64,000 bases of DNA, taken from contig CM074696.1 of assembly GCA_037367355.1 (NCBI GenBank), positions 1 through 64,000 on the forward strand, written 5' to 3'. Shown here piece after piece: positions 2,833 to 30,833 of the stretch (position 1 is its first letter; each line of letters starts with the position of its first letter). This DNA is from Neoscytalidium dimidiatum. Its lineage: Eukaryota > Ascomycota > Dothideomycetes > Botryosphaeriales > Botryosphaeriaceae. A model generated the notes under the pieces. The model was not told the DNA's origin. It saw only the letters and a program-made list of their open reading frames with translations, and searched no databases. The position numbers and the translations under genes are program-made.

Positions 2833-2858
2833 GGTGCAAGATGATGAGATTGAAATGT

Positions 2859-2873
2859 GCCACAATGTGTGGC
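2859..2873 (-). repeat. CACANTG hairpin A
   Basis: GCCACA-ATG-TGTGGC, 6-bp perfect arms. On the coding (minus) strand the loop is CAT. It lies in the presumed 5' leader of the 1828-2832 gene. Confidence 0.8.
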
Positions 2874-5114
2874 TATATAGATGTAGGTGGGTTCGTCGGA
2901 TTGCCGGCAGAAGATCGCGAGAGAGACCGGCAATGTGCGGCAGTGACGCTGTCGGCGGTGGGGCGCTGGGTCTTTTTTTTTGGGGTGGGGAAGCTTGACG
3001 GTACCAAGAAGTTGCAACGGCAGTTTAACGAAAGAGATACGGATTTAGGGTTTGAACTGGGGCAGGGTGTTGGAAGATTCTGGCTCATTGAAGAGGGCGA
3101 GCGACGAGCAATATGCTCGGCGGAGGCGCGGAGCCAACGCTCCGACAAGGTTCTAGATATTCTGTTTGCTACCGCCTTGCGCCGATCGCTCTGCCATCTC
3201 ACTCGTGTTCTCGCCATTTTGTTCGCTGTTGCCTTAGACTATATTATCATCGCAAATGAGACTTATGAAACGCTTTCCGGGCCATGATTTAAAAGGTTCG
3301 ACCGTCGATTGATGTTCAGTCCTACTCGAAGCTATGCATGCTCTGGCAGATTTTCAGCTCTCACTTGATTTTCAAGGCACTGATTTAGCATTCTGAACGT
3401 TGTTCTCTGGGGAAATGAGCTCACGCTTGGGTCGCTTAGGAAGACACACCTTGTGGGCGATACGCTGACTGAAGGAAAGATGTAATAAATACCGTAGGAA
3501 AAAGCTTTGAGTCTTGAATACTTATTTAGCGAATACTGGACCGTCTGCCCTGTCAGCAATGGTCGAAAGCGCCGCCAACGGAGACCGGATTGCCTGCTGC
3601 TCTACCGCCAGTCTCTTTCACACTCGGAATATTGGAAGTCGAAGAAACCGCCCCCGATCCTATGCATCCTGTCCCCGGCCAGTACTAAGCTTCTTCAATA
3701 TTCGAATAAGGGGATATGACTCCCCAAAAACGGAATCGGTCTGAACAACCACGCCGAGCTGGACGGGCCAAGCGTACGAGATAGGAGACTTTTGGGCGCG
3801 CTCGACTTCAACACAAAACATATCGCAATTGCAATGAAGGATGTTGATCGGCAATGAAGACAGTAACGTACATTCGTGTCGTCGTGGGCTTGAGGAGAAT
3901 ACGGTAAGGGAGTTTGGGTTCCGTAGCCAGCCAACCGAGTGCATAATAGTTAAGGACGGCCCGTTTGTGGGACTTCTCTTGGACGTAACAAAAAGATACA
4001 TTGAACGCGAAAAATTTAGATAATTTGCTACGTGTAACTTCCACGCTAGAGCGTCAACATGGAATGCGTATCTAATCACTTCCGAGAGTTCCGGTGATAA
4101 GGTATTTCATGGAGATTTAACAAAATGGGAAAATAACGTGCCCTACTAGAGGAGGTTCTTGGATCCAGCTCTTGCCCGCCTGCCAGCTACGTGTACCACT
4201 CATCTATTAGCAGCTCTTTTACGGCGCAGAGATATGTAGCGGGGTTGCCGCTGGCAATTGTTTCTTTGTTTGCACTATCATTTGGGTTACCTAGCGAATC
4301 AGTGTGGACCATAGAGTAAACAGCCACCGAAGACTTGTGTTGCCCTTCCGCGTTTTCGAAAGACGAAATAAATCGTCCTGTTTGGAAACAAGACCGTATC
4401 ATCCTGTCAGAGATACAAAAGTACCATGATCTATCCGTGAATCGTATTTTACTCATCTATGTGTCTCGCGCGCCATCTTCCACTCGAGCATGGACATACA
4501 GTACTAAGAGAAGCGTAGGGGCTTAATATATAAATTGAGATGGTATCCAAAGCGTTAAGGGCTCATCTAAAGACAAAATTTAATTTTAAATGTTCTAGAG
4601 CCGAGCTAAAGTATTAAGCATATGAAAACCCGGTGCGTTTCTACATCTTAAGTATAGAGTTTGAGGAGGTTCTCTAGATTGGAAGTGGACAGGCTGCCGA
4701 AATACGATAGGCATCAGAACTTTAGCAAAAGTAGAAAGCTGAGGAAATACGATGCGCATCGGATCTTTAAAGTAGGGGAAATGCTAAGAAAATACGATGC
4801 GCACTAGAACTAAACTGATGGTATTAAAACATGTCGGCTAAATCACGTAAGTTCACATTCATAGATGGGACGGCAAATTGCACGGTCTTGGGAAATCTCA
4901 GAGATCATTGAGCTATCTTACTGGTACACTTTTCGATGGTTAAGTAATTTATCTTAGGTTTGAGTGTTCGAAATCTGAACTCCATGTTCGAGGAGGTGTA
5001 GACATGAAGGAATACCCAGCAAGGATTTTATTACGGTTAAATTATGATGCTGCTTCACCATATTTTCCAATTCAAGGCCCATTCTCTTCCCAGGCTCAAC
5101 CATGCAGCCGTGAG
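2874..5114. other. Gene-poor intergenic stretch
   Basis: Only short overlapping frames on both strands (60-170 codons) with no recognisable protein. A run of 45-bp tandem repeats lies at 4700-4810. AT content rises from about 4.5 kb to 5.0 kb. I see no convincing gene. Confidence 0.5.
4700..4810. repeat. 45-bp degenerate tandem repeat
   Basis: The word AAATACGAT recurs at 4700, 4745 and 4790, exactly 45 bp apart, followed by related text (GGCATCAGAAC, GCGCATCGGATC, GCGCACTAGAAC). About 2.5 imperfect units. No function is evident. Confidence 0.75.
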
Positions 5115-6263
5115 CTAACACAGAGGAAGCTTCACGGACTTGGTGATGTCCCGGTCAAATTCCTGCATGCTCACAACACAGCAGGGGCCCTCCGGATCAG
5201 TCGTTAGCGGACGTCCGTGCCACTGGCGAAGTAGATAATCCACGTTTTCTTTCTGAGAGAGCGGTAGTTCGATGTGAAGATAGTCGTCTTTCAGCGCGAA
5301 TCGGTCGTATGATATGTGCTTACGCAAGCACCAGTCCTTTATGTCGTCATAGATGGTGGGCCAAACGTCGTTGCGGAAAACCTTCACCAGGAACATGGCG
5401 ACAGAAATAATGTCAGGGGACTCATTCTGGGGCAGTATTGGAGCTTCATCACCCCCGGGTGCCGCCGCATTGTCGCGGAAGTGCTGGGCATATTCCTGCA
5501 AGCTCATGTTCTGAAGAGCTGCCATATCGCGCTGGAGCAGCTCATCTGCTATTTCAGGATGTCCAGCTTCGCGTTTGACCTCGCGGCTGGCCTCTGCCCC
5601 GCGGCACTTCTCCTGATACTCCCGCTGGAACGTCTCAAATCCTTGTGCTCTCGGGTACATGTACTCATTTGGTAGAGTAGGGTTGCGATTGACGTCCTGG
5701 TCGATATCATCGAAGAAAGCATCACTATCCGCATCACCGAAGTTGCTTATGTCATCGAATGCATCTGTAGCAGTCTCGGCTTTGTCTTCTCCATTGAAAG
5801 ATTCTGGAAGCTCGTCTTCCTCTCCTTGCTCCTTGTCGAGGGCAGCGAGCGGAAGAGGCGGTGAGCTAGCGGTGTTGGTTGGACTTGAACCATGATGGTG
5901 CTCCACCAAGGCGGATGGAATCTCGACCTCTGAGATATCAGAGTTGTACTGGGATCTTGCACCATTGTGGTGCTCATCACGTGTAGCTAGGTGCGTATGC
6001 TGAGAACTGATGAAGTTGAGCGAGGATGCATCGCCAGTGTGGCGCTCAGGAGGATTCACGGATCTTCCTGTTGCATGAAGTGGGACACCACCATCGCTAC
6101 TCGTATCTGAGAACGCGTCGAGGTTAGTGCACCGTACCGAGAGCTCTGGAGTACAGTCAGTCAAAGATCTTTTCGGCAACAGTGGGTTGGTTGTGACCTG
6201 AGGATGGGAGAGCGCTGCTGCGATGCGGATGAGTTGGATCTGTACGCTGGGCGCAGTGCGCAT
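5115..6263 (-). CDS. Acidic, mostly disordered protein with 24-aa repeats
   Basis: Uninterrupted 382-codon frame with ATG at 6263; the start is uncertain because another ATG lies upstream in a different frame. Residues 1-190 are low-complexity and include three repeats spaced exactly 24 residues apart, each beginning E-(H/R)-H-x-G (ERHTGD, EHHNGA, EHHHGS). Residues about 140-200 are strongly acidic. The C-terminal 110 residues look folded (MFLVKVFRNDVWPTIYDDIK; SYDRFALKDDYLHIELPLS) but match no family I know. The three repeats are also three RNA-hairpin-like inverted repeats at the DNA level (centres 5894, 5966, 6038). It precedes the FHA-like gene on the opposite strand, sharing an intergenic promoter region of about 420 bp. 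Function unknown. Confidence 0.65.
   Translation of the reverse strand: MRTAPSVQIQLIRIAAALSHPQVTTNPLLPKRSLTDCTPELSVRCTNLDAFSDTSSDGGVPLHATGRSVNPPERHTGDASSLNFISSQHTHLATRDEHHNGARSQYNSDISEVEIPSALVEHHHGSSPTNTASSPPLPLAALDKEQGEEDELPESFNGEDKAETATDAFDDISNFGDADSDAFFDDIDQDVNRNPTLPNEYMYPRAQGFETFQREYQEKCRGAEASREVKREAGHPEIADELLQRDMAALQNMSLQEYAQHFRDNAAAPGGDEAPILPQNESPDIISVAMFLVKVFRNDVWPTIYDDIKDWCLRKHISYDRFALKDDYLHIELPLSQKENVDYLLRQWHGRPLTTDPEGPCCVVSMQEFDRDITKSVKLPLC
5959..5973 (-). repeat. CACANTG hairpin B
   Basis: GCACCA-TTG-TGGTGC, perfect 6-bp arms; coding-strand loop CAA; inside the 5115-6263 gene. Confidence 0.85.
6032..6044 (-). repeat. CACANTG hairpin C
   Basis: CGCCA-GTG-TGGCG, perfect 5-bp arms; coding-strand loop CAC; inside the 5115-6263 gene. 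Confidence 0.8.
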
Positions 6264-6687: not shown

Positions 6688-7428
6688 ATGACAGACCGCC
6701 AGTATCAGGCTGCAATGGCCTACTTCGTTGCTGATGCCGAGTCAACCATGACTCTTCAAGAAGTGGAGCCCGTCGAGTTTCGCTCCTTGATTCAGAAGCT
6801 TGTTCTCCGCTCTGCTGTCCGCCCCAGCCACGCGGACATTATCCTCCTTCCATTCCGCGATGGAGAAGATGGGCCTACGGTTCAACCGCAGCTGTTCTCC
6901 TTTCATTTCCCGGGCCATATAGTCCACATTGGACAAGATCCTTCAATCAGCGACCGTGAGACCAGGAGGGCTACAAACATGCACGGAGAGCCTCCGAAGC
7001 TTCGCGGCCCAGGCAAATCAAACAAGATTGTTAATGTCTCCGAAATCTCTTTCCTCTACATTCCCTCGGAACACGTCTTCAGGCGCCACGGTCGCCTAAC
7101 TTGGAATGGCTCTTCAATCTCGATTGCGCCATGCCTCAACGACCGTCCAGATGGCCGAGTCATCAGGTCCTTCGTCAGCGTGAACGGTACGGAGCTCACT
7201 GCAGCCGAGTCACTCAAGCCTGGCGACATCATCTCTTTCGTACGTATCCCGGGATCGGCCCCCATGCTCCGGTGGAAGGTTTGTCGGATCTTCGAAGGCA
7301 GGCTTGTCCCAGTGGACAACGCGCGCTTCTTCTGGATGCAAGCACTTGCCACGCTCATCAAATGGCTGCTGTTGGCTCTCTTTGGGCTCCTTTGCGTGGT
7401 CATTGGCTGGTGTTTCAAGGCCGGATAA
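6688..7428 (+). CDS. FHA-like domain protein with C-terminal membrane anchor
   Basis: 246 codons in one exon from ATG 6688. Residues about 70-185 read like a forkhead-associated (FHA) fold: a strand with a Gly (FPGHIVHIGQDPSI), a Ser-His pair (IPSEHVFRRHGRL), then SFVSVNGTELTAAESL-KPGDIISF, close to the FHA pattern 'N-G-T-x-L...L-x-x-G-D-x-I-x-F'. FHA domains bind phosphothreonine peptides; the exact phospho-binding residues cannot be confirmed by eye. Residues about 222-243 form one hydrophobic helix (LIKWLLLALFGLLCVVIG) followed by only four residues, so this is probably a tail-anchored protein facing the cytosol, perhaps on the ER or nuclear envelope. One CACANTG hairpin lies within the FHA-like part. 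The FHA call is an inference from the motif pattern. Confidence 0.6.
   Translation: MTDRQYQAAMAYFVADAESTMTLQEVEPVEFRSLIQKLVLRSAVRPSHADIILLPFRDGEDGPTVQPQLFSFHFPGHIVHIGQDPSISDRETRRATNMHGEPPKLRGPGKSNKIVNVSEISFLYIPSEHVFRRHGRLTWNGSSISIAPCLNDRPDGRVIRSFVSVNGTELTAAESLKPGDIISFVRIPGSAPMLRWKVCRIFEGRLVPVDNARFFWMQALATLIKWLLLALFGLLCVVIGWCFKAG
6922..6934 (+). repeat. CACANTG hairpin D
   Basis: GTCCA-CAT-TGGAC, perfect 5-bp arms, loop CAT, sense orientation in the FHA-like gene. Confidence 0.75.
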
Positions 7429-7849: not shown

Positions 7850-10768
7850 TTATATTACCTCTCTGATAATCTCCAGCTCCTTCCTGTACCCAATAAAGTC
7901 TTTATTAAGGACTTTTTGTAGATCCCGTACTTGATTCTCAGATATTATGTCGTCGTTAAGGCCTGTCTCAACGGCACGAATGGCGTCCAAATCTCCTGCT
8001 TGTTCTACCTGGACCCTTAGCTTCAGCAATATCTCCTGTACAACATCTTTGTCTGCTTGAACTTGGGCGAGGACCTCCGCGGTCTCCTTGTTGTCCATAT
8101 GCTGCAGCAGGAACAGGTTATCCAGAGACGGTGTCTGTCTGCATTGAACAAACAAGCAGCGCCGCTTTTGCCCCAAACGATGTACCCTAGAGCGCCCTTG
8201 GACCTCCATATTGACGTTATAGTACAAGCTCAACGCTATCGCTATCCGACAGGACTGTTGAATGTTGAAGCCCACAGAGCCCATGTGCCAGGTTGTCAGG
8301 AAGATCATGGGCGTTCCTGGACCTGATCTGTTGAACTCTTCGATAAGTGCGTTTCGTGCCTCGCTGTCCAAGCCTGAGTGGAAAGTCGCAACGTTCATGC
8401 CGAAATGCTCGGCAAAGGCACGAACCAAGGTTTGTTCCCTGTTGTCGAAGACGAATATCACCGCCTTTTCCCTTGCCTTCAAGACGACACGCTCCAAGAA
8501 GATCGCCAACCACTTCAACTTTGGGCTTCCCAGACGAGACAGACATTGATCAGCTGAGAGAACTTCGTGGTCATAGACGTCGCGGCAGATGTCCAACAGG
8601 CTCTTGCTCTTCTTGTTCCATCTCTGGATCACGGACTTGTCTTCGGGAATCTTGAGCACGACGTCAGATAAAGACATGACAGCAAGGCGTTTGAGTGCCT
8701 GAAGGTTGAAGCCCTTGCGTGCGGCAATAGTATTCCACAGCTGTGCTACGTGGCTGTTAAAGGTAGAAACGTATCTTTCCTTCTCCCCCTCGTCGTCAAA
8801 GGCTACGGTCTGTCGCAATACTGTCAGTGGCGGTGTGAATTCGCCGACGCATGGACCGGCGCTGTTATATTTGCGAGAGCTGAGATTCCGATGGATGATA
8901 TAGTCGCAAACTCTGGCAACCGTGGCGAGCGCGATCCCCTGGGCCTGGGCATCGCAGGGCTCTGCATACTTCTCCCACATCTCTGCCAACACCGCATGTT
9001 TTTGGACAGACTCCAGCTCGTAAGGATTAGATCCAGGAGAGCATGCCAGCGCTGCCAATATCTCCCTCTCAGCTATATTCCAGGCAGTCTTATTTGCTGG
9101 CTCTAGAAAGCCGAGAAGCCCTTTCAGGTCTGCAAGTCCATTCATGGCAGGTGTCCCGGACAGCGCAACCCTCCACTGGCATTGGAACTTGTTGACGGCG
9201 AGGAAGGTTTTCGAGTCGCGTTCATTCCGCAGAACTTGCGATTCGTCCACAATGACACAATGAAAAGCTTCCGCGTAGCTGACGTCGTCCGTGTTCGACT
9301 TTCTCGTGATGGATCGCAAGGTATCGCTGCTGTACACCACAACAGTCCACTTGTCATTGAATGGACCTCTGGGGTCGCGATTTCGGTTTTGCTCGTCTTT
9401 GGGGGTACTTGCTGCGGTTCTGGAAGATGAAGGCATTGTGCCTTTGCTGTCAACGTAGACGAAATGTAGGTTTCTCGTTGCTTTCAGGCCAGTCTGGATC
9501 CACCATTGTGCAACGGGCGCGGAGGGCACTATCAGAAGGGTTGGTTTAAGCACTTCTGTACAGCTCGCATCATGGAGGGTAGTTTCCAGGGCTAGTAAAG
9601 CTTGTATCGTCTTTCCTACTCCAGGGTAGTCCATGAGACCCGCCCTGCCACATCTGAGAAGGCTTTTTTTGATGTGTGCCACGCCACGGACTTGATACCA
9701 AAACAGGACGGCTGTCGGATTCGTTCCAGGGATATGGAAGGGCTCAGTTGGTGCAATTTCCAACAGCGCGCATGCTTCTGCTAAAGGTGGGCCTTGACCC
9801 CAGAGCGCCGGCAACGGCTGTTCATGGTTGACGGGATATGATACCGGATTTCGTATTTCGACCAAAACTCTGTCCAAGTCATCTCCAAGCGTGTTCACGT
9901 CTGGGCCCTTCTCCGTTGCGAAATGTACAAGGTTTGCGGCCTGTGCGAGCTCTTCCGTTGAAAGTGGCCAAATTTTGGCCTCGCCAGAAACTAACACTTT
10001 TTGAACGTTTCGGCACTCTTGTAGTGATTCGGCGCCTGTAGTATCCCACCGAGTATCCCGGCGTATTATGCTGTATGTGGTCAGAAGGTGACAAATGTCT
10101 GTGGCATCTGCAGCACGCCTGGGATACTTTGTGGGTGTAGGGTTAGGCGGTATGTGTTGAACGTCCGGAGTAGCTATCGCAAGCTTGTAGCTTCTCGGGG
10201 GCACACTGCCGTCTGAGCCTTCCAACGCTGCCGGTGGATTAATCATCCCAGGGTTTCCAAGGAGACTAGAGGAGTTTTCCACCACAGTTTCGACAGCTTC
10301 GGGTAGCAACCAGGACACAAGCTCTGACTTCTTGCGTTTTGATGGTGCCAGATTCTCCTTGACATGCTGCAATAGCACGGCTACCGCATCGAAAAGCTTG
10401 CTGAACCGCTCAGCCTCTGGCAGATTGTCAAAGCGTCCTCTGAAAATCCCCTGCGAGTGCTCAGTTTGAATTTGGATGACCCTGTAGAAGAGCCTGGCTG
10501 TGGTGTTCAACGGAGTCCATTCCACAGGCGGGTTGCAAGTCTCAGGGAATCTGCACACGTCCGTTTGCATCAGGGGAACGATATGCTCCTTCTTGATCGA
10601 CACGTTTCGAACTCCGTCGCCCGTTGAAAGTCTCCAGTTTCTGTACCATTCTGAGAAGGGCACGCGGAACGTCATGTCTTTGAGAGCATCTTCTGCTTGC
10701 TGAATGGATAGGCGCTCTTCGGATGGCCAATCCACAACGGGACCCCATTTCTTGACGAAGGTGGTCAT
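7850..10768 (-). CDS. SNF2-type ATPase/helicase
   Basis: Single exon of 972 codons. The SF2/SNF2 motifs are in order: Walker A DYPGVGKT (about residue 380), the DESQ box in VIVDESQVLRN (about 506; DEAH/DEGH in classical SNF2), motif III SGTPAMNG (about 537), and in the second lobe SVGFNIQQS and QGRSRVHRLGQ (motif VI, about 856). This order and the HRLGQ ending mark a SNF2-family double-stranded-DNA translocase, closest in style to Rad5/Rad16-like or Mot1-like fungal ATPases. The N-terminal 370 residues match nothing I know, and there is no RING, bromo- or chromodomain. The C-terminal 90 residues may be coiled coil. A hairpin sits 16 bases before the ATG and another within the helicase region. 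Likely nuclear; substrate unknown. Confidence 0.88.
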   Translation of the reverse strand: MTTFVKKWGPVVDWPSEERLSIQQAEDALKDMTFRVPFSEWYRNWRLSTGDGVRNVSIKKEHIVPLMQTDVCRFPETCNPPVEWTPLNTTARLFYRVIQIQTEHSQGIFRGRFDNLPEAERFSKLFDAVAVLLQHVKENLAPSKRKKSELVSWLLPEAVETVVENSSSLLGNPGMINPPAALEGSDGSVPPRSYKLAIATPDVQHIPPNPTPTKYPRRAADATDICHLLTTYSIIRRDTRWDTTGAESLQECRNVQKVLVSGEAKIWPLSTEELAQAANLVHFATEKGPDVNTLGDDLDRVLVEIRNPVSYPVNHEQPLPALWGQGPPLAEACALLEIAPTEPFHIPGTNPTAVLFWYQVRGVAHIKKSLLRCGRAGLMDYPGVGKTIQALLALETTLHDASCTEVLKPTLLIVPSAPVAQWWIQTGLKATRNLHFVYVDSKGTMPSSSRTAASTPKDEQNRNRDPRGPFNDKWTVVVYSSDTLRSITRKSNTDDVSYAEAFHCVIVDESQVLRNERDSKTFLAVNKFQCQWRVALSGTPAMNGLADLKGLLGFLEPANKTAWNIAEREILAALACSPGSNPYELESVQKHAVLAEMWEKYAEPCDAQAQGIALATVARVCDYIIHRNLSSRKYNSAGPCVGEFTPPLTVLRQTVAFDDEGEKERYVSTFNSHVAQLWNTIAARKGFNLQALKRLAVMSLSDVVLKIPEDKSVIQRWNKKSKSLLDICRDVYDHEVLSADQCLSRLGSPKLKWLAIFLERVVLKAREKAVIFVFDNREQTLVRAFAEHFGMNVATFHSGLDSEARNALIEEFNRSGPGTPMIFLTTWHMGSVGFNIQQSCRIAIALSLYYNVNMEVQGRSRVHRLGQKRRCLFVQCRQTPSLDNLFLLQHMDNKETAEVLAQVQADKDVVQEILLKLRVQVEQAGDLDAIRAVETGLNDDIISENQVRDLQKVLNKDFIGYRKELEIIREVI
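9430..9444 (-). repeat. CACANTG hairpin E
   Basis: AAGGCA-TTG-TGCCTT, perfect 6-bp arms; coding-strand loop CAA; inside the SNF2-type gene. Confidence 0.85.
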
Positions 10769-10783
10769 GATGACGGTAGGATA

Positions 10784-10800
10784 TTCGGCAATGTGCCGAA
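10784..10800 (-). repeat. CACANTG hairpin F
   Basis: TTCGGCA-ATG-TGCCGAA, perfect 7-bp arms, the longest of the set; coding-strand loop CAT. It ends 16 bases upstream of the SNF2-type start codon at 10768, so it would lie in the 5' leader of the mRNA. Confidence 0.85.
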
Positions 10801-11652
10801 AATCTCGATAGGATGTATTTGAGAAAATCTAGAGCGGGAGTTAGCGGCGATATCTTCAGGTGCCTGCATGTGCTGGCAGCCGAGTGGATGGCGTAGATAT
10901 TTTCGCGTTGCGAGATATTGGACAAGTGTCAGACGTACGGATTGGATTGCGATAGCCTGAGATACTGTCTTATCGTGCTGGCGGAGAGGTGGTCGAGAAT
11001 CCGATGGTGTTAAGAGCTTCTTGTCAAGCACAGCATCGCGGAGAGATAGTTAGAAGCTTGGCACCGGCAAGATAATTTTCCGCAATGTTCGCGGACGACG
11101 CCCCTCTCTTATCACGCCAAAATATCCCTTCAACTTTTGCACCACTACCGATCACGGCATACGGCATGACAAAATAAACAAAACAGACGAAGTTCAAAGC
11201 ACCATTTGCTCATCAGGTTGAAGAATGGTCCTCACGTGGCTAGCATTCCGGGCCTACGCCTTCTTTTTTCGGGTGGAGGCTCTACTGCACGTGGTCAGCT
11301 GTTCGGGCGAGAGCGGCACGCAAATAGCAAGATGACCACAATATCTGGATTTCTTTTTGGAAGTTGAGCCCTGCTTTGCGAGCACGTGTCTATGGACGGG
11401 CCCTTATTTCATAGCCATCAATGTGTCGTCTTTGTTCTTTAAGACACTGTCGGCTTCATCGCCAATATATCCTCACCTCCTCCTCAGCCTCCACCACCAT
11501 TCACCAACCATCTCTTTACCGTACATACCCTGCGGCAAGGCCAACAATTGGCAATTATCACACATATTTCACACTTCGTTGACTAACACTTGGCCCTCCC
11601 ATCCCACAGCGAGGGCGCCAACAATTGACGATCGGTTTACCGAAGGACCTTA
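10801..11652. other. Divergent promoter region
   Basis: About 850 bp between divergently transcribed genes (SNF2-type to the left, the 242-aa gene to the right). CT-rich runs near 11460-11530 resemble pyrimidine tracts common before fungal start sites. No supported ORF. Confidence 0.45.
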
Positions 11653-12437
11653 ATGACCGATGCAAACCTCGCCCCCCAGAAGTCTCGCCATGTCAAAGCC
11701 ATAGACACATACCTCACTGAGAGTGGCATTTCGCGGCCAATAATTGACTTCTTTCGGGAGGACATAAGGCCGTTTGACGGCAGTGCGCGCAGGGATAACT
11801 TTACCAGTTATTCTGCCGGTATTTTGGCAACAGTTCGAAATATCATCAAACTTGATCCCGACATCACGAAACATAGGGATATTTTAGCAAACATCGTTAT
11901 CAATAACCGCGGCAAGAAGTACCACGCCAAGAACAGCAGGTGCCTAGCGAAACAAGACTTGGAACAATACTTCCAACAAGTCTGCCGCGAAAAAAAACGG
12001 GCTCCGTCATCGGTCCGCAAGGACAATAAGAAAAAGCGAGAGAAAGAGCGCGGTAAGTAATCGTGCGCTATGTTATTTCGAGTAAGCAAGCGCTAATGTG
12101 TCATAAAGCCCATCAGAAAACTAAGTCTCCACCGGTTCAAGCCCCTCTCCCCGAATTCGAGACGTCCAAGCTTGATCTCTCTCATGCGGAGGACAGCAGC
12201 ACAATGCTGCATAGAACGATCAACATTGAAGACAACATTGAGGAGGAGGAATTGCCCGCGGCGAATCCTTATGAATCTTTCACGCCAGCAGACTCGGAAC
12301 CAATTTGGAGAAACTTCATGGACGCCAGCTCATTTAATGACGCTGCCCTGCAAATAATATCGCCGCCGATTGGCAGGTGGAGATCCTGCGCCGTAGTTCC
12401 ATTCAGCTGGGACCTCATGCAGTGCTTAGAGCCGTAG
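11653..12437 (+). CDS. Uncharacterised 242-aa protein, two exons
   Basis: Exon 1 is 11653-12052 and exon 2 is 12109-12437; the 56-bp intron has a GTAAGT donor and keeps the frame. The N-terminal 110 residues look like a small helical fold (SRHVKAIDTYLTESGISRPI; LATVRNIIKLDPDITKHRDI), followed by a very basic stretch near residues 115-134 (KKKREKERG), possibly a nuclear localisation signal. The C-terminal half is acidic (IEDNIEEEELP). No family recognised. The basic/acidic division suggests a nuclear protein, which is inference. One perfect hairpin lies in exon 2. Confidence 0.7.
12196..12210 (+). repeat. CACANTG hairpin G
   Basis: GCAGCA-CAA-TGCTGC, perfect 6-bp arms, loop CAA, sense, in exon 2 of the 11653-12437 gene. 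A weaker relative (GACCA-CAT-TGGTT, needing one G-U pair) lies in the presumed 3' UTR at 12537-12549. Confidence 0.85.
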
Positions 12438-15908: not shown

Positions 15909-15914
15909 ATGCCG
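15902..15914 (+). repeat. CACANTG hairpin I over a start codon
   Basis: CGGCA-CAA-TGCCG, perfect 5-bp arms, loop CAA. The start codon ATG (15909-15911) is made by the last loop base and the first two bases of the right arm, so the hairpin contains the initiation site. Confidence 0.8.
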
Positions 15915-21088: not shown

Positions 21089-21099
21089 GGTGGAGTAAT

Positions 21100-21114
21100 A
21101 CGGCAATGTGCCGT
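21100..21114 (-). repeat. CACANTG hairpin N
   Basis: ACGGCA-ATG-TGCCGT, perfect 6-bp arms; coding-strand loop CAT; ends 12 bases before the SF1 helicase start codon. Nearly the same sequence as hairpin F before the SNF2-type gene. Confidence 0.85.
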
Positions 21115-22198
21115 TTGCAAAAGCTTCGTCACGTCAGCTTGGACCGCTAGTAAGTAGGAGAGGTGAGGTCACAATCTAAAACTCGTACCAGAAAAGAAGA
21201 GGTGTGGTTAGCTGCTACTCGGCGTACGAGAGCTATAGAGAATTGGAACTCAAGGCGATGAGTCGTGGCCTTGACGAGGGTTGTAGGAGTTGTAAAAGAG
21301 GATGGAGATGGTGAGGTGTATGGAGGCGCACGGCATCGATGTGACCGGCCTTCGCTTCCGCAGATTAAGCGAGCTGGCGAACAATATCTCGATTTTGGTA
21401 GTTAGTGAATGATTGCTTGAGAAAAAAATGTAAAAAATTTTCAACAATAATAGTTAGTGATTGATTGTTAAGGACTCGGCTTAGCGGATAACATCTCGAG
21501 AACATGGACGGCGGGCCACATTCGTCTTGATGCATGTGTTTTGCTGGCATTTTCTGCACCTAGCTAGTACCACCTCCATATTCCCAATCTTAGATTTCGT
21601 AAGCGTTTTCTCTTTGGTATGGCCATCTGGGCACAATCCTGCTGTTCTTAAGCCCCGACCTCTAACGGGGACAGCAATGCTATGGCTAGGGGCCTTCACA
21701 CGTTACAGAAGACCAGATGCGCAGCCAGTGTGTGGCTCACTTTGGCAAAATGAAAGTGGAGCATGATTACTGGTGATGTAGTGCGCAACGTATGACCTTC
21801 TTGCGGCGAAACTAGAGATGCCATAAACTCCTCTTTCCTTAGCGCTCAACGTTGCCTAACGGACAGACGGGAAATCAGTTACAGCTATATCTCGCAGCTC
21901 TGAGATCCCATGTGTATATGTGATAAAGCCAATCAGGGTCATCCGGCGGCGGTTCATCGGCAGTTGCGTTGGTGGGAGTTTCGCGTAACCTGCACGCCCT
22001 GCTGGCGCTACAGAGATCCGCGCCATTGCGGATCGTCAGCAGCTGTCGCATCATCACCTCACCTAGACGACGCAAAACCTCTCTTTGCACTTGCTAAACT
22101 CCAGATCTTAAGCGATTTGCCCACCTTTCCACGAAAACGTATCAGACAGGACCTCCCTTCAGCATCCCAACAGTTGGGCACACTCTACATCCAGCACA
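21115..22198. other. Divergent promoter region
   Basis: About 1.1 kb between the SF1 helicase and the second paralogue gene. It contains AGCCA-GTGTG-TGGCT (21723-21737), an inverted repeat with a 5-nt centre that may be a variant of the island hairpins. No supported gene. Confidence 0.45.
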
Positions 22199-23351
22199 AT
22201 GGATCTCGCAATATGGAATCAACTCACGCAGGACGACAAGTCTCGACTCGCAATGTCATGTGGCCTTGAACCAAACGCGACGTTGGAAGAAGTCAATTCG
22301 GTCGCAGCAGGCCTACCCAATTCTGTCTTCTCCCCCAGCATCGACGACTTGAGCGGCGATCTCACGGCGGAGTTCCCAATCAATGCAGACATGAACATGC
22401 TGTGGGATGATGGGCGCCGCCCTGACACCAGAGCAATAGAGCAAGGTGCGTTTCTAGTGTCGTCGCTACGTTTCACATATCATTGATTAGTGTCCAGCCT
22501 CGAACGTGCTCCCTTCACCAAGCCGTTTCGGGCCCCAGGCCTCCGAGCTCGCATTTGCTCTACTTCTCTTAGACTGCACTCTACCGCTGGGCCACGCCAA
22601 GGACTATGTAATGAGCACTTCCGATGCGGGCCATTTTCCCCAAGCTGTCCTCAGGGAAGACCTTCGACATGAGGCGCTACAAGACCTCCTCGAAGATGCA
22701 AGCTTTCTGGAGAAGCTAATTGCGTTCCATACCTACAGCACACTTGGGTCTATCCAGTCAGCATGGCTTTTCTTGATAGGAAACAACAGGCAATTCTGCG
22801 CTTCCTTCGGCACATTGCTGAACCGTACTGATAACATATCACTCCAACTCGGACCTGAGCATGAGCCGGCAGAGATTTCTCACGCTTGTTGGGCATTAAA
22901 TGTCAAAGAGGAGTCCCGATGGAAAGACATCTTTGACAAGGCTAACGGACCTGAGAGGATGGATGTCAATGAGGATATGCCTGGCATTCACTCGGTACAG
23001 TGCTATGCCAAAGACATGTTGCCTCCACACCTTACGATATTTCTAAGTGCGGATTCTGCGGCAGCTCTTCGACCTCTTCTACCTAGCCCTACCAAGTATG
23101 TCACACTCATACGCCGTTCGGACGGGATTCCAGGATTTGCAGCAATGCAATGGACTGGTGGTCTCTATAGCAACGGAAAGGCCGTCCGGCTTGTATGCCC
23201 GGTGGGCCGCCAGTTACAAGTGTTGGGACTGCGCAGATCCGTAACGAAGGGCTGGGTCTTTCATAAGGCTTCGATTGAGGATATGGAGGGGCAATTAGTA
23301 CAGGCTGGCTTTCAGCCTAGACTTGCTGTTTTCCGACGAGTCAAATCATAA
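22199..23351 (+). CDS. Uncharacterised island protein, paralogue 2
   Basis: Exons 22199-22445 and 22498-23351; the 52-bp intron (GTGCGT donor, CCAG acceptor) keeps the frame and gives 366 residues. Residues about 150-366 align by eye with the C-terminal half of the 13117-14190 protein, and the LAFALLLLDCTLPL segment matches its IPFAMALTLLNVVWPV. The N-terminal exon (MDLAIWNQLTQDDKSRLAMS) is not shared. No known domain. Like its paralogue, it lacks a CACANTG hairpin. The duplication is old, with under about 40 percent identity by eye. Confidence 0.72.
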
Positions 23352-23475: not shown

Positions 23476-25017
23476 CTACGATCCCTCTATATGCTCAAGC
23501 AGCCTTATTGTATCCCCCAGTGCTCTCGCAAGGTCCTCAAAGTCCCTAGCTCGCTCCTCTTTCTCTTTCATAATTGCGGCAAGCTCATTGTTCGCTCTTT
23601 CGATCTGCTCGTTAATCTGTCGCTCTTCCTCGTAGCATCTTTCGAGCTCCCTTTGTTGAAGTTCCATCTTTTTTGCCGAGCGCTCCTCGATAATTTTCAC
23701 CTGCTCTTTGTAGTTTGCTAGGTCAATGTTAGCCTCATGCAACTCTGATATCACGGCATATGGCCACCTACCAAGGAACGGAGTCCATAGCACCGCCTCT
23801 TCTTTCCAGGCTGTGTATTCGCTGGCGATTTCCCTCTCGGAAGAGCGCACACTTGCTCCCGCAGGGTGGTGAGCGAATCCATGACCTGTAGCGATAGGTC
23901 CACTTCCCAGTCTGTTGAATAGGATTTCCGCAACCCATGCCTGTTCTGGACCCCAAATGCGGTAAATGACCAGCTGTTCAATGTGGTATTTTGGGCGTTC
24001 GATAAGCAGGTTACCCAAAGGCTCCTTGGTCTTGTAGTAGGCTTGCGATATAGCATCTGCCAGGTTCATCAGAAAGTTGGAGTTCACATGCGAGTGGTGG
24101 TCCTTGAATCGGCTCTTGGTGTTGTTCGTGTAGCCAAATTCGCCCAAAGCCCGGGCAACTTCTGATTCTGCGTTCTCTCGCATCACAGCATCACAAAACT
24201 GTTCCGCTTTCTCGAAATGAGTTTTACAGGTGAGATAGCGCCTGGCACCCTCCTTCCAATTGAATTTCCTGGGCTTGGGGCCCACTGCGGTGTCAACACG
24301 ACGGGCAAGTCTCCATTCGTTTTCAGAAGCGCAATAGCGTTTCATCTTCTCGATTATGCCTGTGAGATCGTCCATTGTGGGCGGCTTGCCTTTCTTGTCC
24401 ACGAGGTACTGCGCATATATGACTGGCTGATACCTTCCCGAAGGCAGTTGAGCTTTCCATTCGGAATCAGCGCGTTCAAGGAATCGACGGGCCTCCGGTT
24501 TCTCGTTGGTGTATTTCAGCCTTGCCAGGCTGCCGTCTAAGATGCCGATGAGGATTTCTTTGTTAGTCGAAGCAAGTATATCTGCTCCCTCATCGATGAA
24601 TAGGTCTTGTTGACCGTGATTCAGAATCCTGCCATCCGCGAGCTCTTCGGCAAGCACTTTGGAGAGTAGGGCATCGTACCCGGTTTTGAGTTCGTCGAGG
24701 TAAGGGATTTTCGGCAGCTTATCGAGAAATTCGACTTCGAGGAAGGCTTGCGAGTCGTCTAGACCGGATTCAGCGGTGTTATCCACCTCTGGAGCTTTGT
24801 TGAGAGGTCCCTGGTAGATCCCGAACTCAGCATCCTCTACTTCATCCGGGTTGAGCCTTGGTGCTTCTACGAGCTCTTCCGGAAGTTGTGAGAACAGGCT
24901 GTCAAAATAGGCATCTTCGGCGACATCGGAGGTTGTCTTTGGTGGTTCATCATCTTGACCTTTGAGGTACGAAGGGTTCTTGGGCGGCATCTCAGACTTG
25001 GACGCGTTTCCGTTCAT
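23476..25017 (-). CDS. Uncharacterised 513-aa protein with C-terminal coiled coil
   Basis: Single exon, ATG 25017 (MNGNASKSEMPPK). The N-terminal 110 residues are acidic and disordered. Residues about 110-420 look folded, with Trp/Tyr-rich helices (YRIWGPEQAWVAEILFNRLG; YTAWKEEAVLWTPFLGRWPY). Residues about 425-505 form a strongly charged coiled coil (KKMELQQRELERCYEEERQI). A scaffold role is possible, but no family is recognised. One near-perfect hairpin lies in the middle. A 15-bp minisatellite lies about 100-200 bp upstream of the start. Confidence 0.68.
   Translation of the reverse strand: MNGNASKSEMPPKNPSYLKGQDDEPPKTTSDVAEDAYFDSLFSQLPEELVEAPRLNPDEVEDAEFGIYQGPLNKAPEVDNTAESGLDDSQAFLEVEFLDKLPKIPYLDELKTGYDALLSKVLAEELADGRILNHGQQDLFIDEGADILASTNKEILIGILDGSLARLKYTNEKPEARRFLERADSEWKAQLPSGRYQPVIYAQYLVDKKGKPPTMDDLTGIIEKMKRYCASENEWRLARRVDTAVGPKPRKFNWKEGARRYLTCKTHFEKAEQFCDAVMRENAESEVARALGEFGYTNNTKSRFKDHHSHVNSNFLMNLADAISQAYYKTKEPLGNLLIERPKYHIEQLVIYRIWGPEQAWVAEILFNRLGSGPIATGHGFAHHPAGASVRSSEREIASEYTAWKEEAVLWTPFLGRWPYAVISELHEANIDLANYKEQVKIIEERSAKKMELQQRELERCYEEERQINEQIERANNELAAIMKEKEERARDFEDLARALGDTIRLLEHIEGS
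24369..24383 (-). repeat. CACANTG hairpin O
   Basis: CGTCCA-TTG-TGGGCG: 6-bp arms with one mismatch (T/G on the plus strand). Coding-strand loop CAA. Confidence 0.65.
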
Positions 25018-25522: not shown

Positions 25523-26176
25523 ATGGCTTCCCAACCAGGATCCCATGGCCACAATGGCCAAAATACCTACAAAGCTCCATCTGGATCTTCTTCGTCTCAT
25601 GTCGCGGGCCACAATGGCCTAATTCCGTCAGCCAACGTTCAGATGCCACCTCCTCCTCGCGGGTTGATAACCGCAGACAGACGCGGCGACTTGCAAAAGA
25701 TGTTCATGTATCTGGACATCCATGACAGTTCCAAGCCGACGCCTAAGTCAACAGGTGATAACATTCACCCGACGGTCGATCATCAGCAACGCATCCAATC
25801 CATGAGAGAGACTTTCAGGCCCTCAGAAAAAAGGTACACCTTTAGCCCTTAGCCTGAACATCATTTACCTGGTACAGATCTTCCGTCAGCGTTGTCGGAC
25901 CATAGAATTTGGAGGCACGATGCGTATGCCTTCCTCGGAAAAGCGTACTTCTCCCCAGACCCTTGGGTACGGAAATTGATAGAGGACTTGCTTGCTGCCT
26001 TTCCTGTTGGAGAACTTGTCTGTGTGCCACTTTGCGGATGGATGATATTCTTTCCGAACACACTCGCAGGGCTGAAAGATATGATGGAAACCGTCCTAGC
26101 GTTAGAGGCCCAAGGTTGCGACGGCTATCCGCTGAAGTTTGCGGTCAACTTTCCAACGATCACTGGGTGTCCATAG
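25523..26176 (+). CDS. Uncharacterised small protein, probably two exons
   Basis: Exon 1 starts MASQPGSHGHNGQN and is Gly/Ser/His-rich. Exon 2 has a folded look (WRHDAYAFLGKAYFSPDP; RKLIEDLLAAFPVGELVCVP) and ends at TAG 26176. Splicing 25754 to 25878 (GTGATA donor, TACAG acceptor, 123 bp) keeps the frame and gives 176 residues. A better placed donor (GTACAC at 25833) would be out of frame by one base unless the A6 run just before it varies. The exact structure is therefore uncertain. Two hairpins, 60 bp apart, sit at the 5' end, and both encode a GHNG tetrapeptide. Confidence 0.55.
25546..25560 (+). repeat. CACANTG hairpin P
   Basis: TGGCCA-CAA-TGGCCA, perfect 6-bp arms, loop CAA, sense, 23 bases after the ATG. 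Confidence 0.85.
25607..25619 (+). repeat. CACANTG hairpin Q
   Basis: GGCCA-CAA-TGGCC, perfect 5-bp arms, extended by one G-U pair; loop CAA, sense. Centre 60 bp from hairpin P. Confidence 0.8.
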
Positions 26177-26354: not shown

Positions 26355-27077
26355 TTAATACAATAAGCTGTATACCTTGCACAAAGCATCCAATCTGCGC
26401 AGCGTGCTCTTGACCGCCTTTGCCTCTGCTTCTGAAAAGCCTACTCCTGCTAATGTTTCCAGAGACGCTTCCCTCATCATACTTGCGCGTACACCGCGCG
26501 CCTCGAAGGTAGCACCCAAGCGACGAACATTGGAAGCATACGTATCTTCATCCACAATCCTCAGAAGTTCATCATTTGTTCCTTCCCAAACCAACCGGCC
26601 GCTACTGTGAGGCGGGCTTCCTTGAAGACAGCCGCTGGGATGAGTGTTGCTTTGGAATTGTAGCTCTGTACTTAGGTCAGAATTAGGACCGTAGAATACC
26701 AAGCAAAGGGCTACCATACCTTCCCCCGGCACTTCTCCGTCATTGTGGCTTTGCAGCCGATGACGTGGCAATTTCAGTGGATCCATGCCATGTGCCTCCA
26801 TGCCATGTGCCTCCTTAGGCTGTCCCTCATCCCGTTGTCCCTCCTCCTGTTGTTCCTCATAAACTGAGTCCGGAGTGCCGCGGGCCAGAATTTTCTGGCC
26901 GTCTTGATCATACTCAGGTAGTGAGCCACGCGTTAAATCAGCTTCTGAACGTGTCTTTCGCACAGCTGGTAGAGGCGTTTCCTGAGAGGCTTTGCTGCCT
27001 CGCGCAGACGGCGTTGAGCATGTTCTGGAGTGATTTTGCAGCAATGTGCTGCGTTGTGCTTGAGGAATGATACGCAT
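26355..27077 (-). CDS. Uncharacterised 222-aa protein
   Basis: ATG 27077. A 54-bp intron (26666-26719, GTATGG donor, TTCTGAC branch region, TACAG acceptor) is likely; because its length is a multiple of three the frame is also open without splicing (240 residues). The N-terminal half is charged and low-complexity, with a perfect 15-bp duplication encoding EAHGM twice (26783-26812). The C-terminal 100 residues look folded (WEGTNDELLRIVDEDTYASN; GVGFSEAEAKAVKSTLRRLD), the last part reminiscent of a helix-hairpin-helix turn, though I cannot assign it. One perfect hairpin lies at codons 9-13. Confidence 0.6.
   Translation of the reverse strand: MRIIPQAQRSTLLQNHSRTCSTPSARGSKASQETPLPAVRKTRSEADLTRGSLPEYDQDGQKILARGTPDSVYEEQQEEGQRDEGQPKEAHGMEAHGMDPLKLPRHRLQSHNDGEVPGEGMVALCLVFYGPNSDLSTELQFQSNTHPSGCLQGSPPHSSGRLVWEGTNDELLRIVDEDTYASNVRRLGATFEARGVRASMMREASLETLAGVGFSEAEAKAVKSTLRRLDALCKVYSLLY
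27038..27052 (-). repeat. CACANTG hairpin R
   Basis: GCAGCA-ATG-TGCTGC, perfect 6-bp arms; coding-strand loop CAT; near the start of the 26355-27077 gene. Same arms as hairpin G. Confidence 0.85.
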
Positions 27078-27571: not shown

Positions 27572-28377
27572 ATGGCTGAGGGCAGACGAGCCTCCTCCGT
27601 TGACAACCTGATACAGGCGTTTAACATTAAATTCACTGGGTCAGAGGAGGGCCTCGCACTGAACGGAGATGAGACTCTCATTCAGGAACTGAGCACTGTC
27701 AAGCGAGTTACACTTGAACGAACGCAGCGCGGCTCGACCACCGATACCTCACCTCGTCCTACCAGGCCCACAATGGGCCAAACCCACCAAAATCATTCTG
27801 GCCCTGTCATCTACGGAGAGGATTCTGGCCGCAAAAGGAAAGTGGCCTCTGCAGAGGCTCTTGCTCGGAAAAGAGCGCGACACCAAAACTCGGAGAGTGA
27901 GGTGCCAACTCCTTCACTGGCAATCGACTTCTTCTCGGCTTCCGTTGGAACTTTGACTCCTGAAGGTCAATACCCGTTCCTGGACCTGTCTAAGCTTAGC
28001 CAACAGCGTATATGCACGACCTTTGACAACCTTATCCTTGAAGGCGAGAAAAAGAAGGCGAGGTTCAATCAGTGGCGCCAGGATCCAAAAAATTGTCTCT
28101 TCGTCCACGTATTTATGCGGCTAAAATCCACATGGGTGAATGAGAAGACTAAGGGTAGGGTTGCATGTAAGTAGATAAAGTCATGATTATCTACTGAATG
28201 CTGACCGTTGGAGGTGATAAATGCCGCGCTAATGGGAGGCCTTGCGTAATTCAGTCCGATGGTGCCTTCCCGTTCATCATTCTCCCTCTGCCGGATGCAA
28301 ACGGCGATTGGCGTGAGCCCACCTACTGGTTTGGTGAAAGGCAGAACAAAGGCGGACGCAAGCGCAAGAACTATTGA
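27572..28377 (+). CDS. Uncharacterised basic protein with a short Cys motif
   Basis: Exons 27572-28166 and 28214-28377; the 47-bp intron with a GTAAGT donor keeps the frame and gives 252 residues. The splice creates VACDKCRANGRPC, which resembles the first half of a fungal Zn2Cys6 finger (CxxCRxxxxxC) but lacks the second Cys triad, so a DNA-binding role is not established. A bipartite basic run lies near residues 86-105 (GRKRKVASAEALARKRARHQ) and another at the C-terminus (KGGRKRKNY), suggesting nuclear location. The start codon lies in the loop of a 6-bp inverted repeat (CTCAGC ... GCTGAG, 27562-27580). One perfect CACANTG hairpin lies inside exon 1. Confidence 0.65.
27765..27779 (+). repeat. 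CACANTG hairpin S
   Basis: GGCCCA-CAA-TGGGCC, perfect 6-bp arms, loop CAA, sense in the 27572-28377 gene. Confidence 0.85.
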
Positions 28378-29141
28378 GTGATATGGAATGGACCTAGTGT
28401 TTGTGATTTAGATAGCCAAACAGAATGCGATGTAGCTCAGCTGGGAGCGAATAATGGGAATGACGCGTGTTATTCAAGGGATGTAGTGCGTGACTCTGAA
28501 AAAAAGTCAGCCGTGGTCAATGGAAATATAATTTATGCCCCACAGAGATGTATTACATCACATCGTTTTTTGTACAAGACTTGAGCAATCCACTGAGAGT
28601 CTGGAAGTATTCAAATGGCTCTTTCGTGAACGATTGTTGATGCTCAACCCTTCAACAACCGGGCTGCTCCGAGGACAATCATCCTGCAGTGGATGTATAG
28701 TGTGTACAGAAACAGCCCAACATTACAAGAAAAATTAGAGCAGGTCCCCCGCGTGACTGGAAGCAGCAATTTTCCCCCCTCGCGGCATCGTGATGGACTC
28801 GGCGCATTGCGCAGCGCGGGCGATCGAGCGGTTCTTGTGGTGGACTTGCAGCTGCAATGTGCAGCGCAGGCAAGAGCCAATGCCAATAGCGATGGCGAGA
28901 AGCTTCTAGATGGAGCGCGCCGCTCGGAAAGGTCTCGTCATTCCTCCTGCACGCGTGCCGCCGGCGGTCCCTTCCAAAGTTGACAGGGCAGCGTCGAGGC
29001 AACGCTACGCAGCAACAGCTCGAGGACTTTTCCTTCTCTCCATTACCACCACCCTCACACACTGCCATACCTGCTATCGCACCGCTCCAACATCATCGAC
29101 GCTCACCAGCCCACAAAGGGCAATTTACAGTCCTCACTACA
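28378..29141. other. Intergenic/5' leader region
   Basis: About 760 bp before the coiled-coil gene. It contains hairpin T at 28851-28865. Frames open through it (for example 28693-28983) have no recognisable content. Confidence 0.4.
28851..28865 (-). repeat. CACANTG hairpin T (antisense exception)
   Basis: GCTGCA-ATG-TGCAGC, perfect 6-bp arms. CACANTG is on the minus strand, while the nearest gene (start 29142) is on the plus strand: the only member with this disagreement. It may belong to an unannotated minus-strand transcript. Confidence 0.75.
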
Positions 29142-30833
29142 ATGGCTCCCAAGAGGCAGACGGTGTGGCAGTTCGCCGGCGGTGAAACACCGGCATACAT
29201 ACCGTCGCGTGTTGGCCCAGGTGCGCTATACGAGGCACAGCAGATCGGCCGCAACGGGCGCACAGAATACAAGAATGCGCAAGCCGTTGAAACCTTTTGT
29301 GATAAGGATGCAGCTGAAAAACTTGCTGCAGTTCGAAAGGTGATCCTGACAAGAAGCAATACCCTGAAACGACTGTGCGCGACCGTCACAGCTGCAGAGA
29401 AGGAGCGGACTCAGGACGAGCGCATCAAGACCGATGCGGTGTTCTCGCTTCGTGGTGGCGAGAAGATCACAGCACGGTTCTCGCGTCTCCAAGAAGAGCT
29501 TCGAAAAGAACGGGACATCTCTCAGCGTCTCAGCTCCACATTGGAACAAAACAAAGCTCAATACGCCACTGCGCTAGCGGAGGTCGACAATGCCAGTACT
29601 GAGCGGTTCAATTCCTACAAGGCCGCAGCAGAGGAGGAGGTCAGGACCCTGAAACAAGACCAACAGCACAAACAGGCGGACATTCTGAGGCTGGAGCAAC
29701 AGCTAGATGATAGCCAGAACAACACGACCAGGCTTATCGACCAGTTCACGGCCGAGAAACATGCGAAAGACCAAGATTTGGCGAAGATTGCCGCGGAGCT
29801 CGATGCGAAAGGAGAGGAACTGGAGACCCGCCTCGCGGAGATCACTACACTGAATACCGATCGAGATAAGCTGGGCCGGCAACTTACAACGCACGAGAAG
29901 GATAAACAGGAAGCCTATTCTCGTATCTCTTCCATGGGAGCGGATGTTGAGGCCTTTGCAGATGTGGTGGCCAGTCTTAATATCACCATAGACGAGCTAC
30001 ACGACCATATCGAAATCCTCCAGAAAGATAAGAATGAACTTCTTTTCAAAGCTCTAACAGGTACCAAGGAACAACAGAGCATGGCAGAGGCCATGGAAAG
30101 CCTTGAGTCAGAAAGAGAGGACCTGTGCAGGAAGGTGGAAGGACTTCAATCAGCTCGAGATGAAGCCGAGTCGCGGGCCTCAAGAAACGCCCTGGAATTC
30201 GCATCTCTGAGGGACAGAACGAACGCCCGTAACGCCCACATTCGACGCCTGGAGCATGCAAAACGAGATTTGACTACGGACAAGGAAACCCTCGAGCGGA
30301 ACATTTCCGCAATCAAAACCGAAAATTGCGCCCTCTTGAACACTATTTACGCCCTCGAAACGGCAAAATCAGACATACAATGTCGTTTCGCCAGCACTGT
30401 AAGGGCTTTCAATGAGACGAGGATGTCCATGCAGGTCTCGATCGATGACGCACATGCCGCCCTCACTGCTTTTATCGACGAAGCCACATTAACAAAGACC
30501 AAGGGTATCACGCTTATAAGTCGCCGAGCAGAGTTTCAAAAGAGGGTTTCGTTGCGCCTTCAGTCTGCGGTGACAGCCCTTGCAATCGCTTTTAAATGCG
30601 AAGCTCAATGCAATGTTGACAGGATTCACATTTTGAGTGCCCGCGTAACCCAACTTACTAATGAAAAAAAGGCACGGGATGATCAGATCGACAGACTGCT
30701 GGACTCGGGGAGGGGATATATGGCAAGAGTAGACCAGAGGGTGACATTGTTGAGGAACAGGATCGCACAGCTTGCTGAGGAAAGAAAGGAACGGGATCTT
30801 GAGATCGAGAGACTGATGAATGCGAGGAGATAA
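29142..30833 (+). CDS. Long coiled-coil protein
   Basis: 563 residues from ATG 29142 (MAPKRQTVWQFAGG); the frame is open 54 codons further upstream, but 29142 has the better context (CACTACAATGGC). From about residue 70 to the C-terminus it is almost wholly heptad-rich, charged coiled coil (ELRKERDISQRLSSTLEQNK; LDAKGEELETRLAEITTLNT), like SMC-hinge-less tethers or myosin-tail-like proteins. The last 70 residues hold two related units (RVTQLTNEKKARDDQIDRLL and RIAQLAEERKERDLEIERLM), a short internal duplication. The function could be a scaffold or tether; no specific family assigned. One hairpin with a single mismatch lies at 29533. Confidence 0.75.
   Translation: MAPKRQTVWQFAGGETPAYIPSRVGPGALYEAQQIGRNGRTEYKNAQAVETFCDKDAAEKLAAVRKVILTRSNTLKRLCATVTAAEKERTQDERIKTDAVFSLRGGEKITARFSRLQEELRKERDISQRLSSTLEQNKAQYATALAEVDNASTERFNSYKAAAEEEVRTLKQDQQHKQADILRLEQQLDDSQNNTTRLIDQFTAEKHAKDQDLAKIAAELDAKGEELETRLAEITTLNTDRDKLGRQLTTHEKDKQEAYSRISSMGADVEAFADVVASLNITIDELHDHIEILQKDKNELLFKALTGTKEQQSMAEAMESLESEREDLCRKVEGLQSARDEAESRASRNALEFASLRDRTNARNAHIRRLEHAKRDLTTDKETLERNISAIKTENCALLNTIYALETAKSDIQCRFASTVRAFNETRMSMQVSIDDAHAALTAFIDEATLTKTKGITLISRRAEFQKRVSLRLQSAVTALAIAFKCEAQCNVDRIHILSARVTQLTNEKKARDDQIDRLLDSGRGYMARVDQRVTLLRNRIAQLAEERKERDLEIERLMNARR
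29533..29547 (+). repeat. CACANTG hairpin U
   Basis: GCTCCA-CAT-TGGAAC: 6-bp arms with one C/A mismatch; loop CAT, sense in the coiled-coil gene. The last member of the set going right. Confidence 0.65.

Follow-up and report, generated by a model that had tools for sequence, protein, structure and literature searches.

A strand-biased family of CAN-triloop hairpins with free complementary arms in one gene block of Neoscytalidium dimidiatum

The Smaug/Vts1 element is a stem-loop that is read mainly by its loop, for which the rule is CNGG. Vts1p is the budding-yeast member of the Smaug group (PMC3468468). In the relaxed constitutive decay element (CDE), a stem of 6-8 bp whose sequence is free carries a YRN triloop; G-U pairs are disfavored, and closing A-U pairs are present in the UCP3 and CSF3 elements (PMC6294493). 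These elements are located in the 3' untranslated regions (3'UTRs) of animal genes (PMC6294493, PMC6426291). Recognition that reads the triloop and is blind to the arms has precedent in this system (PMC6294493), and decay of stem-loop messenger RNAs (mRNAs) by Regnase-1 in animals is UPF1-dependent (PMC6426291). Here we describe a hairpin family in the first 31 kb of a 64,000-nucleotide stretch of the N. dimidiatum genome (the window; contig CM074696.1, positions 1 to 64,000). Its members pair free but complementary arms into a stem of about 6 bp, carry a CAN triloop closed by an A-T pair, and usually have an A immediately 3' of the stem. They lie in a block of about 28 kb, mostly of unidentified genes, at one end of the contig (C2 in our numbering, of which the window is the first 64 kb).

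A hairpin family concentrated in one gene block

A good stem was defined as an ACANT core with at least four of its five outer pairs formed. Positions 1-31 kb hold 31 good stems, compared to a mean of 3.96 and a maximum of 13 in 200 dinucleotide shuffles. Stems with all five outer pairs numbered 14 (shuffle mean 0.26, maximum 2) and good stems with a 3' A numbered 25 (mean 1.04, maximum 5). For coding sequence, synonymous codons were shuffled 300 times in 17 open reading frames (ORFs) totaling 19.3 kb. In the sense orientation, these ORFs contain 20 good stems (mean 3.2, maximum 9), ten stems with all five pairs (mean 0.4, maximum 3), and 18 good stems with a 3' A (mean 1.6, maximum 6); in the antisense orientation, there are two good stems (mean 1.0, maximum 5). 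A first-pass annotation of this stretch had argued from its differing but matching arms that the family reflects a hairpin rather than a fixed protein-binding site. This is borne out by pairing in excess of both the dinucleotide and the synonymous-codon shuffles, neither of which gave a similar number of hits.

The contrast extends to the rest of the genome (43.76 Mb in 40 contigs). The heptamer CACANTG occurs 15,306 times (0.35 per kb), compared to 9,444 for the reversed pattern, and reaches 1.35 per kb in the block. Counted on both strands, 1-31 kb has 42 copies and 31-64 kb has 11; the earlier counts by eye (about 36 and 8) were slightly low, and the excess in the block that they indicated holds. 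The other 33 kb of the window contain a single good stem. A 267 kb genome sample, not random but made up partly of helicase loci and partly of contig ends with some loci overlapping, contains 18 good stems, five of them with a 3' A, i.e., 0.067 per kb compared to 1.0 per kb in the block.

We also searched the whole genome with four patterns, each of which fixed two stem pairs as G-C or C-G, required the 3' A, and left one stem pair free. These gave 20, 14, 36, and 16 matches, 86 altogether, and their reversed counterparts 3, 10, 10, and 7. Seventeen of the 86 (5, 5, 6, and 1) fall within 22 kb of the block (C2:5,958-27,780), and the other 69 are scattered at no more than two per 50 kb. The free stem pair is complementary in 13 of the 17 block matches, compared to 15 of the 69 elsewhere (Fisher p = 4e-5), and 16 of the 17 have a loop ending in A or T, compared to 35 of the 69. 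Since the patterns cover 17 of the 27 sites described below, they could overlook weaker clusters in other places. The hairpin family is real, strand-biased, and, as far as these searches are sensitive, concentrated in one block; the free-pair result supports the first-pass reading as a hairpin, and the density is not equal across the rest of the genome.

Hairpin architecture and sites along the block

Twenty-seven of the 31 good stems are described as the site set; cores 18634, 19659, 19931, and 28701 were left out. Because this set was chosen for pairing, its pair statistics describe the element rather than prove it: 93.8% of pair cells are paired, compared to 59.6% in shuffles. The sixth pair, counting G-U, is formed in 21 sites and open in six, and four sites have an inner or fifth-pair mismatch. 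Non-standard cells comprise three G-U, five C-A or A-C, and five others. A CAN loop is present in all 27 by search definition; the loops are CAA (15), CAT (9), CAG (2), and CAC (1).

A survey of loops points to the same element. Among perfect 6-bp stems with loops of 0 to 8 bases, triloops are commonest (21, compared to 13, 13, and 14 for loops of 1, 2, and 4 bases; expected 7.6), and no common loop was noticed among the non-triloop stems. Only four perfect 6-bp triloop hairpins occur in the rest of the window, and 12 of the 21 in 1-31 kb are centered on CACAATG, CACATTG, or CACAGTG. When triloop hairpins are grouped according to their closing pair and the first two bases of the loop, class A-CAN-T has 30 members with at least four of five outer pairs and 14 with all five. 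Apart from this class and its reverse complements, no class in 1-31 kb exceeds seven members with at least four of five pairs, and among the 14 classes listed none has a member with all five. In the rest of the window, every triloop class has at most eight members with at least four of five pairs, and those listed have at most two with all five. The family may include loop variants, namely a TAT loop (3103-3121) and an AAT loop (9964-9982), each on a perfect 6-bp stem and both on the minus strand. Rfam covariance models gave no match in positions 1-31000 at E values up to 1.

The family is wider than CACANTG because the second pair may be A-T, as it is at 11546, 11623, 13750, 22172, and 30303. 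The extent first proposed, 2.9-29.6 kb, accordingly lengthens to 30.3 kb and its fixed CACANTG center is relaxed. The 17 perfect inverted repeats originally reported with that center were recovered, 12 perfect over 6 bp and five over 5 bp; one-mismatch cases number five (16303, 17092, 22811, 24373, and 29537) rather than four, giving 22 of 42 heptamers in place of 21. Armed heptamers were also said to be absent from 31-64 kb, which is true of ten of the 11 there; the one at 51627 forms five of six pairs.

The 3' A is the other constant feature. In 24 of the 27 sites an A immediately follows the 6-bp stem, although this was not a selection criterion. Among all ACANT cores of the block, a 3' A follows 25 of 31 good stems compared to 57 of 228 poor stems (Fisher p = 3e-9). 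No other flanking position within 45 bases comes close to this constancy: the next best, at 14 of 27 each, are A at the mirrored position on the 5' side and four further positions with G, C, or A.

Positions relative to genes were assessed against 15 gene models derived from ORFs, with start codons of our choosing and no splicing, one of which joins two ORFs; ORFs 2873-3217, 3660-4079, and 28679-29068 were kept out. All 15 models carry at least one site, counting those up to 350 nt upstream, which raises the earlier tally of 13 of about 16 genes. Relative to these models, 27 of the 31 good stems are sense, two antisense, and two (28858 and 28701) have no modeled gene. Within coding sequence the good stems are 20 sense and 2 antisense, compared to 67 and 47 for cores with two pairs or fewer (Fisher p = 0.003). 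Nineteen of the 27 sites are inside ORFs, seven are upstream of or on a start codon, at -334 (-27 from a nearer small ORF), -107, -34, -30, -24, -19, and -1, and one (28858) has no assigned gene. Those inside ORFs lean mildly 5' (mean relative place 0.36; Kolmogorov-Smirnov p = 0.02, n = 19). Codon phase was considered as an explanation of the sites and ruled out: all three phases are used (9, 7, and 3 sites), and hence the peptide is not what is kept. Together, the sense bias and the 3' A, neither of which the first-pass annotation had noted, speak for a hairpin that forms on one strand, most simply in mRNA.

One pair of genes bears further on this point. ORFs 13117-14190 (F) and 22506-23351 (J) are paralogues of 32% identity without a Pfam match, and no homologue was found among the best candidates scored in a protein set possibly poor in fungal proteins. 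Both encode the peptide FGTLLN. The J codons (TTC GGC ACA TTG CTG AAC) form a hairpin and the F codons (TTC GGA ACT CTT CTG AAC) form none; the hairpin of F lies 38 codons beyond, where J has none. To judge from the two sequences, the element in this pair is kept per gene, not per place, using synonymous freedom.

The sites are distributed along the block as follows. A CAT-loop hairpin (2857..2875, minus) lies 34 nt upstream of the ATG of ORF 1828-2832; no homologue of this ORF was found in the protein set, which is weak evidence of absence as the set may hold few fungal proteins. ORF 5115-6263 contains a CAA-loop hairpin (5957..5975, minus) and a CAC-loop hairpin (6029..6047, minus) with its outermost pair open and no 3' A. 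ORF 6688-7428 (plus), which has a weak FHA-domain resemblance (E 0.095, below cut-off) and a hydrophobic C-terminal stretch in its translation, contains a CAT-loop hairpin with the outermost pair open (6919..6937, plus). Next is an SNF2-family ATPase ORF (7850..10768, minus); it contains a CAA-loop hairpin without 3' A (9428..9446, minus), and a CAT-loop hairpin lies 24 nt upstream of its ATG (10783..10801, minus). Upstream of the ATG at 11653 are two CAA-loop hairpins with A-T second pairs, neither the favored fold in context: one at 107 nt with the outermost pair open (11537..11555, plus) and one at 30 nt with an inner mismatch (11614..11632, plus). CAA-loop hairpins are also found inside ORF 12096-12437 (12194..12212, plus), paralogue F (13741..13759, plus; A-T second pair), and ORF 14526-15350 (15044..15062, minus; outermost pair open). 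ORF 15909-17486 has three on the plus strand, all with CAA loops: one containing its start codon, with the outermost pair open (15899..15917), one with a U-G pair (16297..16315), and one with an inner mismatch (17086..17104).

The SF1 helicase ORF (17843..21088, minus), whose best solved relatives are SEN1 and UPF1-like helicases, contains a CAA-loop (19702..19720, minus) and a CAG-loop hairpin (20816..20834, minus), with a CAT-loop hairpin 19 nt upstream of its ATG (21098..21116, minus). Three of the cores outside the 27-site set also lie in this ORF: 18634, a weaker sense hairpin with a CAT loop, a U-G second pair, and a 3' A (18625..18643, minus), and the antisense cores 19659 and 19931 (both plus), without 3' A. 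Farther along, site 22172 (22163..22181, plus) has a CAG loop, an A-T second pair, and an open outermost pair, is not the favored fold in context, and lies 27 nt upstream of the ATG of ORF 22199-22486 (334 nt from 22506). The hairpin of paralogue J has a CAT loop and one G-U pair (22805..22823, plus). CAA-loop hairpins follow in ORF 23476-25017 (24367..24385, minus; one inner mismatch), ORF 25523-25852 (25544..25562 and 25604..25622, both plus, the latter with an outermost G-U pair), and ORF 27572-28174 (27763..27781, plus), and a CAT-loop hairpin in ORF 26355-27077 (27036..27054, minus). The doubtful minus-strand ORF 28679-29068 holds the left-out core 28701 (minus), with neither modeled gene nor 3' A, and the perfect CAT-loop hairpin 28858 (28849..28867, minus), without 3' A, which is antisense to the 29142 gene if the leader of that gene extends so far. 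Finally, ORF 29142-30833 contains two CAT-loop hairpins, one with a mismatch that is not the favored fold in context (29531..29549, plus) and one with an A-T second pair (30294..30312, plus).

Among the block ORFs scanned, only domains of the SNF2 and SF1-helicase type passed Pfam cut-offs; the remainder gave no match above them. Other matches to the two helicases within the genome are distant (27-41% over parts for SF1, 23-37% over parts for SNF2), and no relative was found in the viral contigs searched with both. When the best 7,994 candidates by common words were scored, the SF1 helicase protein gave one weak match (E 1.4e-5, 25% of query). Predicted structures of two orphan block proteins have a mean pLDDT (predicted local distance difference test) of about 33. 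Neighbors of the block encode domains of the phenol-hydroxylase, amine-oxidase, and methyltransferase kind, and the window has a G+C content of 52%.

Some further sequence features were recorded in the window and beyond it. In a comparison of positions 1801-21800 with the genome itself, the sole match listed involves part of a gene for a complex I subunit: window 3732-3830 (minus) matches C7:1597352-1597450 over 99 bp at 78% identity. The reading frames there resemble the 75-78 kDa complex I subunit, so the block sequence looks like a gene piece. The first arm of a 51-nt inverted repeat (28051-28101 and 35090-35140, 76% complementary) falls within a block gene and the second beyond the block, and a perfect 77 bp tandem duplication lies at 45476-45629. 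On other contigs, the end of C11 (locus L040) carries an identical 19-base CACAGTG hairpin at about 623 (plus) and 8040 (minus), perhaps the ends of a repeat, and the contig end C4:1-10000 has a G+C content of 30%.

A possible reader and rival explanations

With slightly better than even confidence, we propose that the elements are an mRNA cis-element, and that a single hairpin-binding protein reading stem shape, loop, and 3' A gives the block common post-transcriptional control. What is recognized would be a roughly 6-bp stem, whatever the sequence of its complementary arms, with A-U as the closing pair and mostly C-G beneath, topped by the CAN triloop and followed by the 3' A; the protein would read the A-form helix together with its loop and the 3' A and ignore arm sequence. 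Such a protein could treat the block mRNAs alike because every modeled gene has at least one hairpin, whether by holding or repressing translation, by decay, by stabilization, or by localization. Our first guess at the outcome would be control of translation or decay coupled to a helicase of the UPF1 type, for example the block's own, a link suggested by analogy with UPF1-dependent stem-loop decay. In a 121-nt RNA context, 23 of the 27 sites have a predicted second-pair probability of at least 0.70, a figure with no shuffled comparison behind it.

Several observations weigh against this proposal. The other four sites are not predicted to fold as drawn, and in the 23 that are, the closing A-U pair has a predicted probability of just 0.46-0.66; with so weak a closing pair the functional loop may be a pentaloop. 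The perfect site 28858 has no modeled gene on its own strand, two good stems of the 31 run antisense, and the position of sites in transcripts is drawn solely from ORF models. Searches for ROQ families gave no match but were uninformative, as the controls matched nothing either, and the Regnase-type nuclease family was not found in a search in which one control matched. The mismatches show no lean toward G-U (three of the 13 non-standard cells), as would be seen with DNA hairpins. In the CDE study, however, G-U was the only stem change to do significant harm (PMC6294493), so the missing wobble lean does not decide between RNA and DNA.

More tentatively, and with well under even confidence, the block may be a self-marking genetic element, in which an arm-independent mRNA hairpin tag gained independently by each gene lets an RNA-binding protein, perhaps together with the block's UPF1/SEN1-like helicase, tell element mRNAs from those of the host. 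Should every mRNA of a single element bear the tag, a linked, foreign-looking gene set would be seen to be controlled post-transcriptionally as a unit. Sequence freedom makes shape-read RNA elements difficult to discover; with more than two dozen hairpins in about 15 neighboring genes, one genome is enough to reveal the rule. We know of no description of a block-wide hairpin tag on neighboring genes, and no fitting fungal hairpin family appeared in the titles and abstract openings of the best-ranked open-licence literature.

The elements might instead act as DNA hairpins on the coding strand, as cruciforms or in an exposed non-template strand, and be read by a DNA-binding protein or polymerase. 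The promoters of phage N4 are hairpins with a three-base loop whose non-conserved stem positions matter just for hairpin upkeep (PMC4496689). Seven of the 27 sites would suit such a role in lying within 110 nt upstream of or on a start codon, if 22172 is assigned to ORF 22199-22486, and the lack of G-U preference is likewise compatible. We nevertheless consider this unlikely: promoters are not expected within ORFs, yet 19 of the 27 sites lie there, the N4 polymerase uses the hairpin of the template strand (PMC4496689), and no polymerase gene was found among the ORFs scanned.

It is improbable that the hairpins are substrates of an RNA-modifying or editing enzyme requiring a hairpin with ACA in its loop. 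A fixed ACAN loop on a free stem would, in our judgement, suit such an enzyme, and in fungi the sites of A-to-I editing show enrichment in stem-loops, but the editor is described as preferring a UAG triplet, which the ACAN loop does not contain (PMC11087585). The use of all codon phases also precludes uniform recoding, and restriction to one block would be left unexplained.

Template switching can perfect quasi-palindromes, and the family could in principle be a functionless by-product of such repair or another DNA process; this is very improbable, since neither the fixed CAN loop, nor the 3' A, nor the sense bias is predicted by it. Chance, composition, or codon usage can be dismissed almost entirely, for although codon-shuffled ORFs retain about three sense sites, the 20 observed are more than twice the maximum in 300 shuffles, and the genome sample and whole-genome patterns speak against it as well.

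Comparison with described hairpin systems

The block hairpins, taken as an mRNA element, differ from the Smaug/Vts1 element in that their CAN loops do not follow the CNGG rule. They resemble the promoters of the phage N4 virion RNA polymerase in joining a triloop to stem positions that are variable but paired (PMC4496689), and differ from them in that those promoters are DNA, act on the template strand, and number three in the phage, whereas most block sites are inside reading frames. Like the stem-loops edited by Tad2-Tad3-Ame1, they would present loops of fungal mRNA hairpins (PMC11087585); unlike these, which show the UAG preference, they crowd in one block.

The closest parallel is the CDE read by Roquin and Regnase-1. 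All 27 sites have a YRN loop, an A-U closing pair, and a stem of 5-6 bp, in some cases with a mismatch. CDEs occur in animal 3'UTRs, whereas the block sites are spread over the leaders and coding sequence of a single run of neighboring genes; in addition, their loop is constrained to begin with CA and the 3' A is conserved. The block hairpin is not classed as a CDE, because its place in the transcript differs and no reader has been named, yet it would work like one.

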